A stretch of 64,000 bases of DNA from Roseinatronobacter sp. S2 (lineage in GTDB: Bacteria; Pseudomonadota; Alphaproteobacteria; Rhodobacterales; Rhodobacteraceae), in the NCBI RefSeq assembly GCF_029581395.1, contig NZ_CP121113.1, positions 2,786,001-2,850,000 of the forward strand. The letters are read 5' to 3'. Numbering within the stretch: position 1 is the first letter of the stretch; each line of letters opens with the position of its first letter. The notes below the pieces were generated by a model. That model had not been told where the DNA came from and ran no database searches. It was given only the letters and a program-made list of their open reading frames with translations. Position numbers and translations under genes: made by a program. Shown one piece after another: positions 36,185 to 40,992 of the stretch.

Positions 36185-37255
36185 CTAGATCACCTCGATC
36201 AGGCGCTTGGCCATGCGTTCATAGGCGCGCGCAACGGGACTGTCGGTTGCGGCAACCGGAATTCCGCCGTCGCCCGCCAAGCGCACCTCGACACTCAGCG
36301 GCAATTCCCCAAGGAACGCCAGACCCTGCTTCTCGGCCTCGACACGGACACCGCCTTCGCCAAAAATATGGTCTTCATGACCACAATTCGGGCAGATATA
36401 GGTCGACATGTTCTCAACCAGACCCAGAATAGGGGTCTTGAGGGTCTGGAAAGCGCGCAGCGCCTTGCGCGCGTCCAGCAGTGCCACATCTTGCGGCGTC
36501 GATACGACGATTGCGCCACGCACATCGAATTTCTGGCATAGTGTCAAATGAATGTCGCCTGTGCCCGGCGGCATGTCGACGATCAGCACATCCAGCTCGC
36601 CCCATTCCACCTGCGTCAGAAGTTGCTGCAACGCGCCCATCAGCATCGGGCCGCGCCAGATCACGGCATCATCGGCCTTCAGCATCAGCCCGATAGAAAT
36701 CATCGTAACACCATGCGCCTGAAGCGGGATGATCTTCTTGCCATCGGGCGATGCGGGCCTGCGGTCCACGCCCATCATCTTGGGTTGGCTGGGCCCATAT
36801 ATATCGGCGTCCAGCAGGCCGACACGCAGCCCCTGCCGCGCCAGCGCCACGGCCAGATTAGACGCCACTGTGGATTTGCCGACGCCGCCCTTGCCGGACC
36901 CAACAGCCACAATATGGCGCACACCCGGCACGCTTTGTTTGTCCCCCTGGGGACGCGCGTGCCCGCCGATCTTCAATGAAGGTGCATCCCCTTTCGGTTT
37001 GGGCGCAGGGCCATGCGCGGTCAGCGCCGCTGAAACCCGTGTTACCCCGTCCAGTGCCTTGATGGCAGCTTCGGCGGCCTGCCGGACAGGGGCAAGGCGT
37101 TGGGCAACATCTGCGCTTTCGGCTTCCAATACGAAACGGACTGCCCCCCCCTCGACCACCAGGGCGCGCACCAGATCGCGCGACACCAGATCGCCACCTT
37201 CCGGCAGGGTAATCTGTTTCAGGGCCTCAAGGACCGTTTCGCGCGTCACACTCAT
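36185..37255 (-). CDS. Mrp/ApbC-type iron-sulfur cluster carrier ATPase
   Basis: The 356-residue protein has an N-terminal MIP18/DUF59 domain (about residues 1-80) and a P-loop ATPase domain starting at GSGKGGVGKST (about 118-128). The C-terminal CPNCG binds the Fe-S cluster between two subunits. Proteins of this group carry Fe-S clusters to apo-targets. The middle linker (GPAPKPKGDAP) is rich in proline. It is divergent from the HIT gene. Confidence 0.92.
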   Translation of the reverse strand: MSVTRETVLEALKQITLPEGGDLVSRDLVRALVVEGGAVRFVLEAESADVAQRLAPVRQAAEAAIKALDGVTRVSAALTAHGPAPKPKGDAPSLKIGGHARPQGDKQSVPGVRHIVAVGSGKGGVGKSTVASNLAVALARQGLRVGLLDADIYGPSQPKMMGVDRRPASPDGKKIIPLQAHGVTMISIGLMLKADDAVIWRGPMLMGALQQLLTQVEWGELDVLIVDMPPGTGDIHLTLCQKFDVRGAIVVSTPQDVALLDARKALRAFQTLKTPILGLVENMSTYICPNCGHEDHIFGEGGVRVEAEKQGLAFLGELPLSVEVRLAGDGGIPVAATDSPVARAYERMAKRLIEVI

Positions 37256-37826: not shown

Positions 37827-37960
37827 TCTGAATTTCAGATACTGGTTAAGCCGTCATATCCAGAGATTTTCTGGACCGGATGGTTTGTTTTTCGGGCAGT
37901 TTTGAAATTTACCTAGCGTAAACATGACGCTATTGCATAGCCGCATTGCAGCATCGTGTG

Positions 37961-37987
37961 TTGTGCAGACGCAGCAAATTGCTATCT
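37961..37987 (+). promoter_or_regulatory. Possible promoter of the ccaF1-CcsR locus
   Basis: TTGTGC (37961-37966) and CTATCT (37982-37987) are spaced 15 bases apart, 55 bases before the ccaF1 start. In Rhodobacter sphaeroides this locus is driven by the heat-shock sigma factors RpoHI and RpoHII. The boxes here are only a candidate by eye. Confidence 0.3.
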
Positions 37988-38041
37988 TGGGTTCAAGAAG
38001 ACGCGGCACTGAACGCCGCACAACTGAACGGAAGGTGCAAC

Positions 38042-38254
38042 ATGGCACATATCACAGCAAATGTCAGCTCCGTACGGCCTGTAGCCTACCTGATGGGCTG
38101 GGTTGAAAGCGTAGCCGACACGTTCGCACGCTACCGGGTCTACAAACGGACCCATGACGAACTTAGCCGGCTCAGCAGCCGTGAACTGGATGATCTTGGC
38201 ATCAGCCGCTCCATGATCACGCGTCTGGCATACGAGGCCGCATACGAGAATTAA
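38042..38254 (+). CDS. ccaF1: DUF1127 small basic protein, CcaF1-like
   Basis: The 70-residue protein ends with the DUF1127 pattern ELSRLSSRELDDLGISRSMI, preceded by a helical arginine-rich stretch (ARYRVYKRTHDE). In Rhodobacter sphaeroides the DUF1127 protein CcaF1 is encoded directly before the CcsR small RNAs, binds RNA and affects sRNA maturation and RNA turnover. Here too the gene is followed at once by an array of hairpins with CCTCCTCCC loops, so orthology is inferred from both domain and context. AAGG lies seven bases before the ATG. Confidence 0.9.
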   Translation: MAHITANVSSVRPVAYLMGWVESVADTFARYRVYKRTHDELSRLSSRELDDLGISRSMITRLAYEAAYEN

Positions 38255-38261
38255 TGGTTTT

Positions 38262-38287
38262 GGGTCCCCTCCTCCTCCCTGGGACCC
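38262..38287 (+). ncRNA. CcsR-type hairpin RNA 1
   Basis: The stem GGGTCCC/GGGACCC encloses a loop containing CCTCCTCCC, which is complementary to Shine-Dalgarno sequences. It lies eight bases after the ccaF1 stop. It is the first of six such units. Confidence 0.88.
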
Positions 38288-38293
38288 GAGAGC

Positions 38294-38326
38294 GACGGTG
38301 ATTGATCCTCCTCCCCAATCACCGTC
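38294..38326 (+). ncRNA. CcsR-type hairpin RNA 2
   Basis: A perfect 11-bp stem GACGGTGATTG/CAATCACCGTC encloses the loop ATCCTCCTCCC. The stem sequence differs fully from the other units while the loop is conserved. Confidence 0.88.
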
Positions 38327-38370
38327 ACCCTATTCCGGCCATGGCAGAAAGCCAGAAACCGGTACGCAAA

Positions 38371-38403
38371 CGACCGCCCCGTCCTCCTCCCTAGGGGTGA
38401 TCG
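38371..38403 (+). ncRNA. CcsR-type hairpin RNA 3
   Basis: The CCCC/GGGG stem next to the CCTCCTCCC loop is extended by CGA/TCG at the base with internal mismatches. It is the weakest stem of the array. About 44 bases without the motif separate it from unit 2. Confidence 0.75.
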
Positions 38404-38405
38404 TT

Positions 38406-38445
38406 GGGATAAAGTGGCCCTCCTCCTCCCTGGCCGCTCTATCCC
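38406..38445 (+). ncRNA. CcsR-type hairpin RNA 4
   Basis: The stem AGTGGCC/GGCCGCT (one G-T pair) around CTCCTCCTCCCT is extended outward by GGGAT/ATCCC. A loop-motif-free hairpin (CGGGTC/GACCCG, 38454-38469) follows before unit 5. Confidence 0.85.
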
Positions 38446-38480
38446 TCGAATATCGGGTCTCTTGACCCGGACATTGCAAC

Positions 38481-38504
38481 GGCCCCCTCCTCCTCCCTGG
38501 GGTC
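38481..38504 (+). ncRNA. CcsR-type hairpin RNA 5
   Basis: The stem GGCCCC/GGGGTC (one G-T pair) encloses a CTCCTCCTCCCT-type loop. Confidence 0.85.
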
Positions 38505-38514
38505 ATGGCAAATT

Positions 38515-38562
38515 GGCGGCAGTCCCCCTCCTCCTCCTTGGGACTGCCGCCTTTTTATTTTT
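38515..38562 (+). ncRNA. CcsR-type hairpin RNA 6, doubling as terminator
   Basis: A perfect 12-bp stem GGCGGCAGTCCC/GGGACTGCCGCC has a loop with CCTCCTCCT, the last base of the motif changed. It is followed by TTTTTATTTTT, so it ends the whole ccaF1 transcript while presenting the anti-Shine-Dalgarno loop. Confidence 0.9.
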
Positions 38563-38595
38563 CAGATCAGAAATTACCTGTCAGCTTCCGTTCAC

Positions 38596-40992
38596 TCAGA
38601 ACGGAAGGTCATCTGCCTGTTCTGCGGGCACGACAAACCTTGCCACTATATGGCGTGCGCCGGACTTTTCGAATTCGACAAACAGCTTGTCCCCGTCCAC
38701 GGATGCTACGCGCCCATAGCCAAATTTGGTATGGAAAACGCGGTCGCCTTCTTCAAAGACCGGCAAGGCAGCCGCATCTATGATCACGCCCGAAGCCTGA
38801 CGTGGCTGCGCGGCGGGGCGCGATTGCGCGGCCTGAAACCGCCGCCAACCGGGCGAATTGTAGACATCGGCGCGCATGGCGCGATCTTCAACATTGCTTG
38901 GCGCGACACCAGCGGCCATGCCAGCACCGCCATACAGGCCCGGCGGCGTCAGAACATCCACATGGTCTGCGGGCAATTCATCTACAAAGCGCGATGGCAT
39001 CTGCGCCTGCCATTGTCCGTAGACCCTGCGATTCGCGGCAAAACTGATGGTGCAAAGCTGCTCGGCGCGGGTGATGCCGACATAAGCAAGGCGGCGTTCT
39101 TCCTCCAGCCCCTTCAGTCCAGTTTCATCCATGGACCGTTGCGATGGAAACAACCCGTCTTCCCAGCCCGGCAGAAACACCACCGGAAATTCCAACCCTT
39201 TGGAGCCATGCAGCGTCATGATGCTGACCTTGTCATCGGCACCATCGGTGTCATTGTCCATCACCAGCGCGATATGTTCCAAAAACCCTTGCAGATTTTC
39301 AAATGATTCCAGCGCTTTGACCAGTTCCTTCAGGTTGTCCAGCCGCCCCGGTGCTTCGGGGGTTTTGTCGTTCAGCCACATTTCCGTGTAGCCGGAGTCT
39401 TCCAGTATCTGTTCGGCCAGTTCGATATGACTGACCTGCGTTTGTGGGGGTGCAGTATCCAGCGTGTCAATCAGGTCATCATCCGCCGCACCCGTAACTG
39501 TGCCGCCAACCGCCGCATGCCAACGCGCGATTCCATCCAGCAGGGCACCCAAGGCCTTGGCCCCGCGCCCGCCCAGCGCGCCCTGATCCAGCGCCATCGC
39601 AGCCCCTTGCACCAAGGGCACACCTGCATCGCGCGCAATCCGCTGAATGGTCTGTTGCGCCTTGTCGCCAAGCCCGCGTTTGGGGGTATTGACCACGCGT
39701 TCAAAGGCCAGATCATCCCCCGGACTGACCGCCAGCCGGAAATAGGCCATCGCATCGCGGATTTCCATACGCTCGTAAAATCGCGGGCCACCGATCACGC
39801 GATACGGCAGGCCAATGGTCAGAAACCGGTCTTCAAACGCGCGCATCTGATGGCTTGCACGCACCAGAATCGCCATCTGGTTCAGCGCAAACGGGTCCAG
39901 CCCACGGGTGCCACGTTGCAAATCCTCTACTTGCTCGCCGATCCAGCGTGCCTCTTCCTCCCCATCCCAATGCCCGATCAGCCGGACCTTTTCGCCTGAT
40001 TGCGCTTCGGTCCACAGGGTTTTGCCAAGGCGGTCTTCATTGCCCGCGATCACCTTGCCGGCGGCGGCCAGAATATGCGGGGTCGACCGGTAATTCTGTT
40101 CCAGCCGCACCACTGTTGCGCCCGGAAAATCCCGTTCAAACCGCAAGATATTGCCCACTTCGGCCCCGCGCCAGCCATAGATCGACTGGTCATCATCGCC
40201 CACACAACAGATATTCTTGTGCCCGCCCGCCAACAACCGCAACCACAGGTATTGCGCCACATTGGTGTCTTGGTATTCATCCACCAGAATATAGCGAAAC
40301 CGCGCCTGATAGCCTTGCAACACATCCGGATGGGCCTGAAAAATGCGGATGCAATGCAGCAGCAGATCCCCGAAATCACAGGCGTTCAGGGTTTTCAGCC
40401 GGTCCTGATAGGCCGCGTAAAATTCTGTCCCGCGATGGTCAAAGGCATTGGCTTCGCTGGCGGGCACCTGTTCGGGCGTCCACGCGCGGTTCTTCCACTG
40501 GTCGATGATTCCGGCAAGCAGACGCGCAGGCCAGCGCTTTTCGTCAATATTTGCCGCTGCAATAAGCTGTTTCAGCAGGCGCAGCTGGTCGTCGCTGTCC
40601 AGAATCGTGAAACTGGATTTCAGGCCCACAAGTTCGGCATGACGCCGCAGCAGTTTCGCGCTGATGGAATGGAATGTGCCCAGCCATGGCATGCCTTCCA
40701 CCGCTTCGCCCAAGTAACCGCCCACCCGCAGCTTCATTTCACGCGCGGCCTTGTTGGTGAAGGTCACCGCCAGAATTTGCGACGGAAAGGCGCGGCCGGA
40801 ATTTAACAAATGCGCAATGCGCGCCGTCAGCGCCTTGGTTTTGCCAGTGCCAGCGCCAGCCAGCATCAGCACAGGACCGTCCAGCGCCTCTACCGCCTGA
40901 CGTTGGGCGGGGTTCAACCCGTCCAGATAAGGGGCAGGACGCGCAGCCATGGCGCGGGCGGACAGGGGCAGATCGGTGTTGAAATCACTCAT
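38596..40992 (-). CDS. uvrD: ATP-dependent DNA helicase, UvrD/PcrA/Rep family
   Basis: UvrD-type enzymes unwind DNA 3' to 5' in repair. With the start at 40992 the protein has 798 residues. Walker A AGAGTGKT is at 45-52, with the SF1 motifs VDEYQDTN, GDDDQSIYGWRGA, LEQNYRS and VSIMTLHGSKGLEFPVV. A C-terminal tudor-like tail follows (FGYGRVASVDGDKLFVEFE), typical of PcrA/UvrD. A longer frame begins 23 codons upstream but without similarity. No SOS box was seen before it. It is convergent with the CcsR array, whose terminator ends 33 bases from its stop. Confidence 0.93.
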   Translation of the reverse strand: MSDFNTDLPLSARAMAARPAPYLDGLNPAQRQAVEALDGPVLMLAGAGTGKTKALTARIAHLLNSGRAFPSQILAVTFTNKAAREMKLRVGGYLGEAVEGMPWLGTFHSISAKLLRRHAELVGLKSSFTILDSDDQLRLLKQLIAAANIDEKRWPARLLAGIIDQWKNRAWTPEQVPASEANAFDHRGTEFYAAYQDRLKTLNACDFGDLLLHCIRIFQAHPDVLQGYQARFRYILVDEYQDTNVAQYLWLRLLAGGHKNICCVGDDDQSIYGWRGAEVGNILRFERDFPGATVVRLEQNYRSTPHILAAAGKVIAGNEDRLGKTLWTEAQSGEKVRLIGHWDGEEEARWIGEQVEDLQRGTRGLDPFALNQMAILVRASHQMRAFEDRFLTIGLPYRVIGGPRFYERMEIRDAMAYFRLAVSPGDDLAFERVVNTPKRGLGDKAQQTIQRIARDAGVPLVQGAAMALDQGALGGRGAKALGALLDGIARWHAAVGGTVTGAADDDLIDTLDTAPPQTQVSHIELAEQILEDSGYTEMWLNDKTPEAPGRLDNLKELVKALESFENLQGFLEHIALVMDNDTDGADDKVSIMTLHGSKGLEFPVVFLPGWEDGLFPSQRSMDETGLKGLEEERRLAYVGITRAEQLCTISFAANRRVYGQWQAQMPSRFVDELPADHVDVLTPPGLYGGAGMAAGVAPSNVEDRAMRADVYNSPGWRRFQAAQSRPAAQPRQASGVIIDAAALPVFEEGDRVFHTKFGYGRVASVDGDKLFVEFEKSGARHIVARFVVPAEQADDLPF

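Follow-up and report, generated by a model that had tools for sequence, protein, structure and literature searches.

A probable ccaF1-CcsR operon with three two-hairpin anti-Shine-Dalgarno modules in a bacterium of the Roseibaca/Natronohydrobacter/Roseinatronobacter group

In the present study, we analyzed a stretch of DNA of 64,000 nucleotides (the window), in which a DUF1127 gene is followed on the same strand by an array of C-rich hairpins and is preceded by a promoter-like block and a divergent mrp gene (Table 1). The DUF1127 stop codon is separated from the first motif by a 14-nt gap region, and the gene directly precedes the RNA array. The motif CCTCCTCC(C/T) occurs six times 3' of the gene and on its strand, at positions 38271, 38307, 38383, 38422, 38489, and 38530, with the first five copies reading CCTCCTCCC and that at 38530, which lies in the last loop, reading CCTCCTCCT. 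Ten matches to CCTCCTCCY were counted in the window, overlaps included, against a mean of 0.55 in shuffled sequences, and at least ten were reached in 0 of 100 shuffles.

Table 1. Features of the locus, in coordinates of the window.
Feature	Positions	Strand	Evidence
mrp (Mrp/NBP35-type P-loop ATPase), divergent, synteny marker	36185..37255	-	PF10609, E 3.7e-98; PF01883
PhaR-like site CCGCATTGCAG, one substitution from CTGCNNNGCAG	37941..37951	+	Sequence
Promoter-like block TTGTGC...CTATCT (TTG-N18-CTATCT), TTGTGCAGACGCAGCAAATTGCTATCT	37961..37987	+	RpoH-type by analogy
DUF1127 gene (ccaF1-like), 70 aa	38042..38254	+	PF06568, E 8.8e-14
CcsR-like module 1 (motif hairpins 38260-38289 and 38294-38326)	38257..38332	+	RF02791, 38.0 bits, E 1.1e-7; covariation helices 1 and 2
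Motif-free spacer hairpin 1	38335..38362	+	z -3.28; covariation helix 3, one both-sides-changed pair
CcsR-like module 2 (motif hairpins 38370-38404 and 38406-38445)	38366..38447	+	RF02791, 18.9 bits, E 0.054; covariation helices 4 and 5
Motif-free spacer hairpin 2	38454..38469	+	z -3.45; covariation helix 6, one both-sides-changed pair
CcsR-like module 3 (motif hairpins 38474-38511, weak alone, and 38515-38551)	38471..38555	+	RF02791, 53.4 bits, E 3.2e-12; covariation helices 7 and 8
Last motif hairpin with T-rich tail, probable intrinsic terminator	38515..38562	+	Stem and tail sequence

When the hairpins were folded singly, every motif fell within the loop of a separate predicted hairpin, with z scores of -2.4, -5.7, -2.4, -5.8, -1.1, and -7.3 for hairpins 1 to 6; the fifth was weak by itself (z = -1.09), 30 of 200 shuffled sequences folding equally well, and the fold of the whole 308-nt array stretch had a z score of -9.5. 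A previous sequence-only reading of this DNA had described, behind a DUF1127 gene, six hairpins that carry the motif in their loops, which the motif counts, folds, and covariation described below confirm, and had noted a single motif-free hairpin among them, whereas two are present, the one in the first long spacer having been overlooked. Its suggestion that the last unit doubles as the terminator is consistent with the sequence of hairpin 6, which combines a 12-bp stem and a 13-nt loop (-26.4 kcal/mol) with the tail TTTTTATTTTT; a T-rich tail also follows the last hairpin in most of the genus rows of our alignment. A terminator scan, limited to loops of 3-8 nt, returned none at the locus because loops longer than 8 nt were not covered, while a promoter scan yielded a single sigma-70-like site, on the opposite strand and at the level expected by chance.

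Regarding the reality of these structures, the window's array was aligned with 28 others of its genus group, giving 29 rows; the source list of 30 comprised distinct arrays with at least five exact motifs, and L035 and L091 were not carried over from it. The RNAalifold consensus contained 55 pairs, 32 of which changed on both sides, and after the two outermost pairs were discarded as spurious, 53 pairs in eight helices remained. Among these, 32 changed on both sides, against a mean of 20.7 in shuffles, an advantage to which the relatedness of the sequences contributes, and against 2 to 11 in slid structures, over which a structure derived from the same alignment is itself advantaged. Across the 53 pairs and 29 arrays, 96.2% of the cells were paired, against 87.0% in shuffles, and 170 cells were changed on both sides, against 52.2; none of the 500 shuffles reached the observed value in any of the three comparisons. 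The pairs changed on both sides numbered 3 to 7 in each motif hairpin and one in each motif-free hairpin, the support for the latter therefore being thinner. Mean identity within the genus was 0.98 in the motif columns and 0.82 in the stem columns, with unit 3 partly misaligned, and together with the paired changes this indicates that the loops are kept while the stems change in a paired manner. Covariation across the 29 arrays thus supports the predicted RNA hairpins. It also bears out the sequence-only reading, in which stems had changed yet remained base-paired around a constant loop, and random change of the loop motif among relatives, which would have spoken against that reading, was not seen.

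A search of the whole window at the curated Rfam thresholds returned a tRNA elsewhere and nothing else. In an E-value search of positions 37900-38620, the CcsR1 model (RF02791; 83 nt, gathering score 65.3 bits) gave the three matches listed in Table 1, all of which were full-length and all of which were below the gathering score; two of the three are strong. The match to module 2 is by itself at chance level, and this module rests on its position and on covariation. The ar14 model (RF02344) gave matches of 48.1 and 43.3 bits, both below its gathering score of 58.8. The printed CcsR1 model consists of two stem-loops with the motif in each, and since it spans two stem-loops, the six hairpins correspond to three CcsR-like units. 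The spacing of the motifs in the window (36/76/39/67/41 nt) follows the same pairing, and among 126 distinct arrays 481 steps were 35-45 nt, 228 were 60-90 nt, 53 were 46-59 nt, and 34 were of other lengths. Of the 226 distinct long spacers, 65% gave a fold with a z score under -1.5 (the mean was -2.0, with 30 shuffles each), so that a motif-free hairpin between modules is common.

A comparison with Rhodobacter (Cereibacter) sphaeroides was made using genome G082, which we take to be this species on the strength of a reaction-centre H protein sequence that matches it at 100% over 260 residues. A 2015 paper reportedly describes each CcsR as two stem-loops, in agreement with the Rfam model. The DUF1127 protein of the R. 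sphaeroides locus (L073) has 71 aa, and its 14 motif hairpins make up seven CcsR1 matches, one of which exceeds the gathering score (106.2 bits); five of the modules are 114-bp repeats that are nearly identical. CcaF1 is likewise described as a protein of 71 aa (PMC10253847), and four CcsRs are named in published accounts (PMC10253847, PMC8307010). These four published units stand beside seven matches in L073, and copy number may differ by assembly or naming. The sequence-only reading had regarded the present locus as enlarged to six units and had proposed a covariance-model comparison of unit numbers between species, which gives three CcsR1 matches here against seven in L073. The enlargement is rejected, as the earlier comparison mixed hairpins with small RNAs: six hairpins are three units, and the locus is smaller than that of R. 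sphaeroides, whether four or seven modules are counted there.

The size of the array was also compared among relatives. In a scan of named genomes, the best 80 DUF1127 loci had the following numbers of exact cores downstream: 0 (one locus, in which an array of five begins before the counting window), 1 (1), 2 (2), 4 (7), 5 (8), 6 (26), 7 (10), 8 (6), 9 (8), 10 (7), and 11, 12, 13, and 14 (one each). For the pooled loci, clusters with at least two exact cores were collected, after which duplicates were discarded together with four arrays close to an edge. Within the window's genus group (n = 30 arrays), 27 had six exact cores and three had five; in the latter (L017, L025, and L038), the alignment shows the sixth unit with a changed base. 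The 94 arrays from elsewhere had a median of 7 cores, a range of 2-26, and more than six in 60%, figures whose upper tail is enriched by 14 regions fetched partly for many hits in the genome and from which loci with fewer than two cores were excluded. The idea that six is something unusual is thus rejected, this being the usual number in the genus and less than the median of the arrays from elsewhere. In the family, 295 of 394 genomes contained one or more close pairs of exact motifs, and with a looser pattern a motif pair was found in 35 of 37 genomes of the genus.

Tandem repeats elsewhere duplicate two-hairpin (114, 113, and 103 bp) or three-hairpin (140 bp) modules, and a tandem repeat search of the window detected none. 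The longest array seen here (L175; G182:C1:333000-336600) follows a DUF1127 gene and has 26 exact cores, most of which belong to a tandem repeat whose 140-bp unit comprises three hairpins. Standalone copies were also encountered: L074 carries a two-hairpin CcsR1-like copy at 1357-1438 (56.9 bits), with similar pairs in L075, L076, and L026. Such copies occur in some members of the genus, and no DUF1127-like frame was found within 250 nt upstream of them. Searching the bacterium's own genome with a two-motif pattern did not reveal such a copy.

Besides the array, the surroundings of the gene are shared among relatives. In 25 of 29 loci of the family, DUF1127 lies immediately 5' of the array; a divergent Mrp gene accompanies 60 of the best 80 named loci, and the retrieved flank included mrp in 19 of 30 loci of the family. 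It is likewise divergent upstream of L073, where its product is 66% identical to that of the window's mrp over 192 aa. Upstream regions were taken from 152 loci, 137 of which had an identified start, giving 119 distinct regions of 220 nt; TTG[TC]GCANNYGCAGC was present in 103 of these, and in 79 of the 103 YYATNT followed 18 or 19 nt after TTG. The exact 16-mer TTGTGCANNYGCAGCA occurs once in the bacterium's own genome. In the sources consulted, an RpoHI/HII promoter is placed at ccaF1-CcsR of R. sphaeroides (PMC3320616, PMC10253847), and for a different DUF1127 gene the RpoHI/HII elements are described as -35 TTG and -12 TAT (PMC10673084); by this analogy, the window's promoter-like block may be of the RpoH type. 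The divergent mrp, upstream in both species, and the conserved TTG-N18/19-YYATNT promoter support orthology of the locus with ccaF1-CcsR. Among the best 80 loci, the nearest named records are from Roseibaca, Natronohydrobacter, and Roseinatronobacter, and the closest of them is L080, a MAG whose protein is 100% identical.

Taken together, DUF1127, the divergent mrp, the promoter block, the loop motif, the covarying stems, and the three full-length, sub-threshold CcsR1 matches uphold the assignment to the CcaF1-CcsR type made in the sequence-only reading, and we consider the locus to be the ccaF1-CcsR operon of a member of the Roseibaca/Natronohydrobacter/Roseinatronobacter group, with three two-hairpin anti-Shine-Dalgarno modules, at a probability of roughly 0.85. 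The chain of hairpins most likely gives rise to three small RNAs able to block the ribosome-binding sites of other messages. Following what is described for R. sphaeroides, namely CcsR function, the RpoHI/HII promoter, and RNase E processing (PMC10253847, PMC8307010, PMC8625941, PMC3320616), a single stress-induced transcript of the DUF1127 gene and the array would be made by RpoH-type polymerase and cleaved by RNase E in the spacers between modules, each two-hairpin module would become one small RNA with the involvement of Hfq and CcaF1, and the DUF1127 protein would bind RNA and tune this maturation. The C-rich CCUCCUCC(C/U) anti-Shine-Dalgarno loops may then base-pair with ribosome-binding sites of the GGAGG type in target mRNAs, in the manner of NfeR1, for which silencing by CCUCCUCCC loops that pair at translation initiation regions is described (PMC10746234). 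A search of the bacterium's own genome for exact 9-nt complements before ATG found two places, neither of which was convincing; judged by eye, one lies inside a long reading frame and the other in a stretch that contains a transposase-like frame, and both were rejected as targets.

The count of six made in the sequence-only reading implies that the single hairpin is the working unit and that six separate RNAs of about 25-40 nt are processed from the array. Each hairpin does fold alone around its own motif, and spacing stays near 40 nt almost throughout in the relatives L176, L179, and L182; nevertheless, short and long spacing alternates in the window and in many relatives, the Rfam model covers two hairpins, and the repeats elsewhere copy whole modules, which makes processing into six RNAs improbable. 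Alternatively, the array may work chiefly in cis, either stabilising the DUF1127 mRNA as its 3' UTR or holding a reserve of the DUF1127 protein or of Hfq; its position directly 3' of the gene would suit such a role, as would the report that CcaF1 of R. sphaeroides binds RNA and affects CcsR maturation (PMC10253847). On the other hand, a loop motif that is nearly invariant while the stems change fits a pairing seed, CcsR1-4 and NfeR1 are described as trans-acting (PMC8307010, PMC10746234), and the two-hairpin copy in L074 stands without DUF1127; we regard a mainly cis-acting array as unlikely.

That the array is a repeat element of DNA without an RNA function seems very remote: tandem modules are near-identical in some relatives, but the paired columns covary, the position behind DUF1127 is fixed, six units are kept across the genus, and the window itself has no detected tandem repeat.

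The upstream regions contain a further element. The sequence CTGCNNNGCAG, given as the PhaR binding sequence of R. sphaeroides (PMC12542648), was present upstream of array-linked DUF1127 genes in 64 of the 119 regions, against 16 of 1911 control windows drawn from these loci and against a mean of 1.0 and a maximum of 3 in shuffles, and a relaxed form was present in 103 of 119 regions against 129 of 1911 control windows; because the regions are related by descent, the enrichment does not represent independent events. Where both elements occurred (60 regions), the distance from the end of CTGCNNNGCAG to TTG[TC]GCA was 17-18 nt (47), 9-10 nt (11), or 2 nt (2). Of 17 examined loci in which no mrp was detected, 12 also have the site, which is therefore not necessarily an element of mrp. 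The looser PhaR motif YGCRNYGCR, found in 42 of 119 regions where shuffles gave 27.2 on average and 35 at most, is hardly informative, and the case for PhaR therefore rests on CTGCNNNGCAG. The bacterium's own genome has a PhaR domain (PF07879), and near this gene (L190) an exact PhaR site lies approximately 100 nt upstream of a gene judged by eye to be phasin-like. In S. meliloti, according to PMC12542648, phaP promoters have two PhaR sites flanking the -35 element and the small RNA MmgR is repressed by PhaR.

Two findings count against PhaR. Exact CTGCNNNGCAG is absent from 55 of the 119 regions, including those of the window's relatives and R. sphaeroides, whose upstream site CCGCATGGCAG is also one substitution from CTGCNNNGCAG; and no phasin gene was seen beside six other exact places of CYGCAWTGCAGCA in the own genome (L168-L173). 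Several of the latter have a gene start within 300 bases, and the genes nearby appeared by eye to encode a nucleotidyltransferase, an AraC-like regulator, a SulP-like transporter, an MFS transporter, a CitE-like lyase, and an ABC binding protein. Among the papers listed by a literature search, PhaR was mentioned together with DUF1127 in PMC9230146 and otherwise only through the homonyms "phar" and "ccsr" in sensor engineering. The upstream enrichment of CTGCNNNGCAG suggests a possible control of the operon by carbon storage. We tentatively propose, at somewhat less than even odds, that PHB-sensing PhaR represses ccaF1-CcsR through CTGCNNNGCAG and possibly through a second site, TGC-N4-GCA, the two flanking the -35 element, that the RNAs are released upon PHB accumulation, and that their dose differs between genera through the amplification of two- or three-hairpin units, from 2 to 26 hairpins. 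If the PhaR-type site is real, stress RNAs would be tied to carbon storage.

These results correct the counting unit for the CcsR-type RNA family: the hairpins come in modules, and species should therefore be compared by modules and not by hairpins. The size of the array, steady within one genus and ranging from 2 to 26 hairpins overall, also offers a natural series for a dose test of redundant anti-Shine-Dalgarno loops.

Among known systems, the closest is the CIN1-type ccaF1-CcsR1-4 operon of R. sphaeroides, which shares with the window a DUF1127 gene in first position, two-hairpin modules with CCUCCUCCC loops, a divergent mrp upstream, and a related promoter block. It differs in having four published or seven matched modules, compared with three in the window, and in its five near-identical repeats, whereas the modules of the window are mutually diverged and score under the Rfam cut-off of CcsR1 (RF02791). 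The ar14/NfeR1 family (RF02344) of Sinorhizobium likewise has variable stems that end in CCUCCUCCC anti-Shine-Dalgarno loops (PMC10746234, PMC3927594); as described there, however, NfeR1 has three hairpins and its own promoter, while the array of the window lies behind a DUF1127 gene. The cuckoo RNAs (Reinkensmeier and Giegerich, 2015) also combine variable stems with a conserved loop motif and are described in PMC4504443 as having 2-4 hairpins; here there are six per array and two per module. Arrays longer than 2-4 hairpins are common among those examined, and the locus belongs to a known kind of system in related bacteria, in which its size is ordinary.
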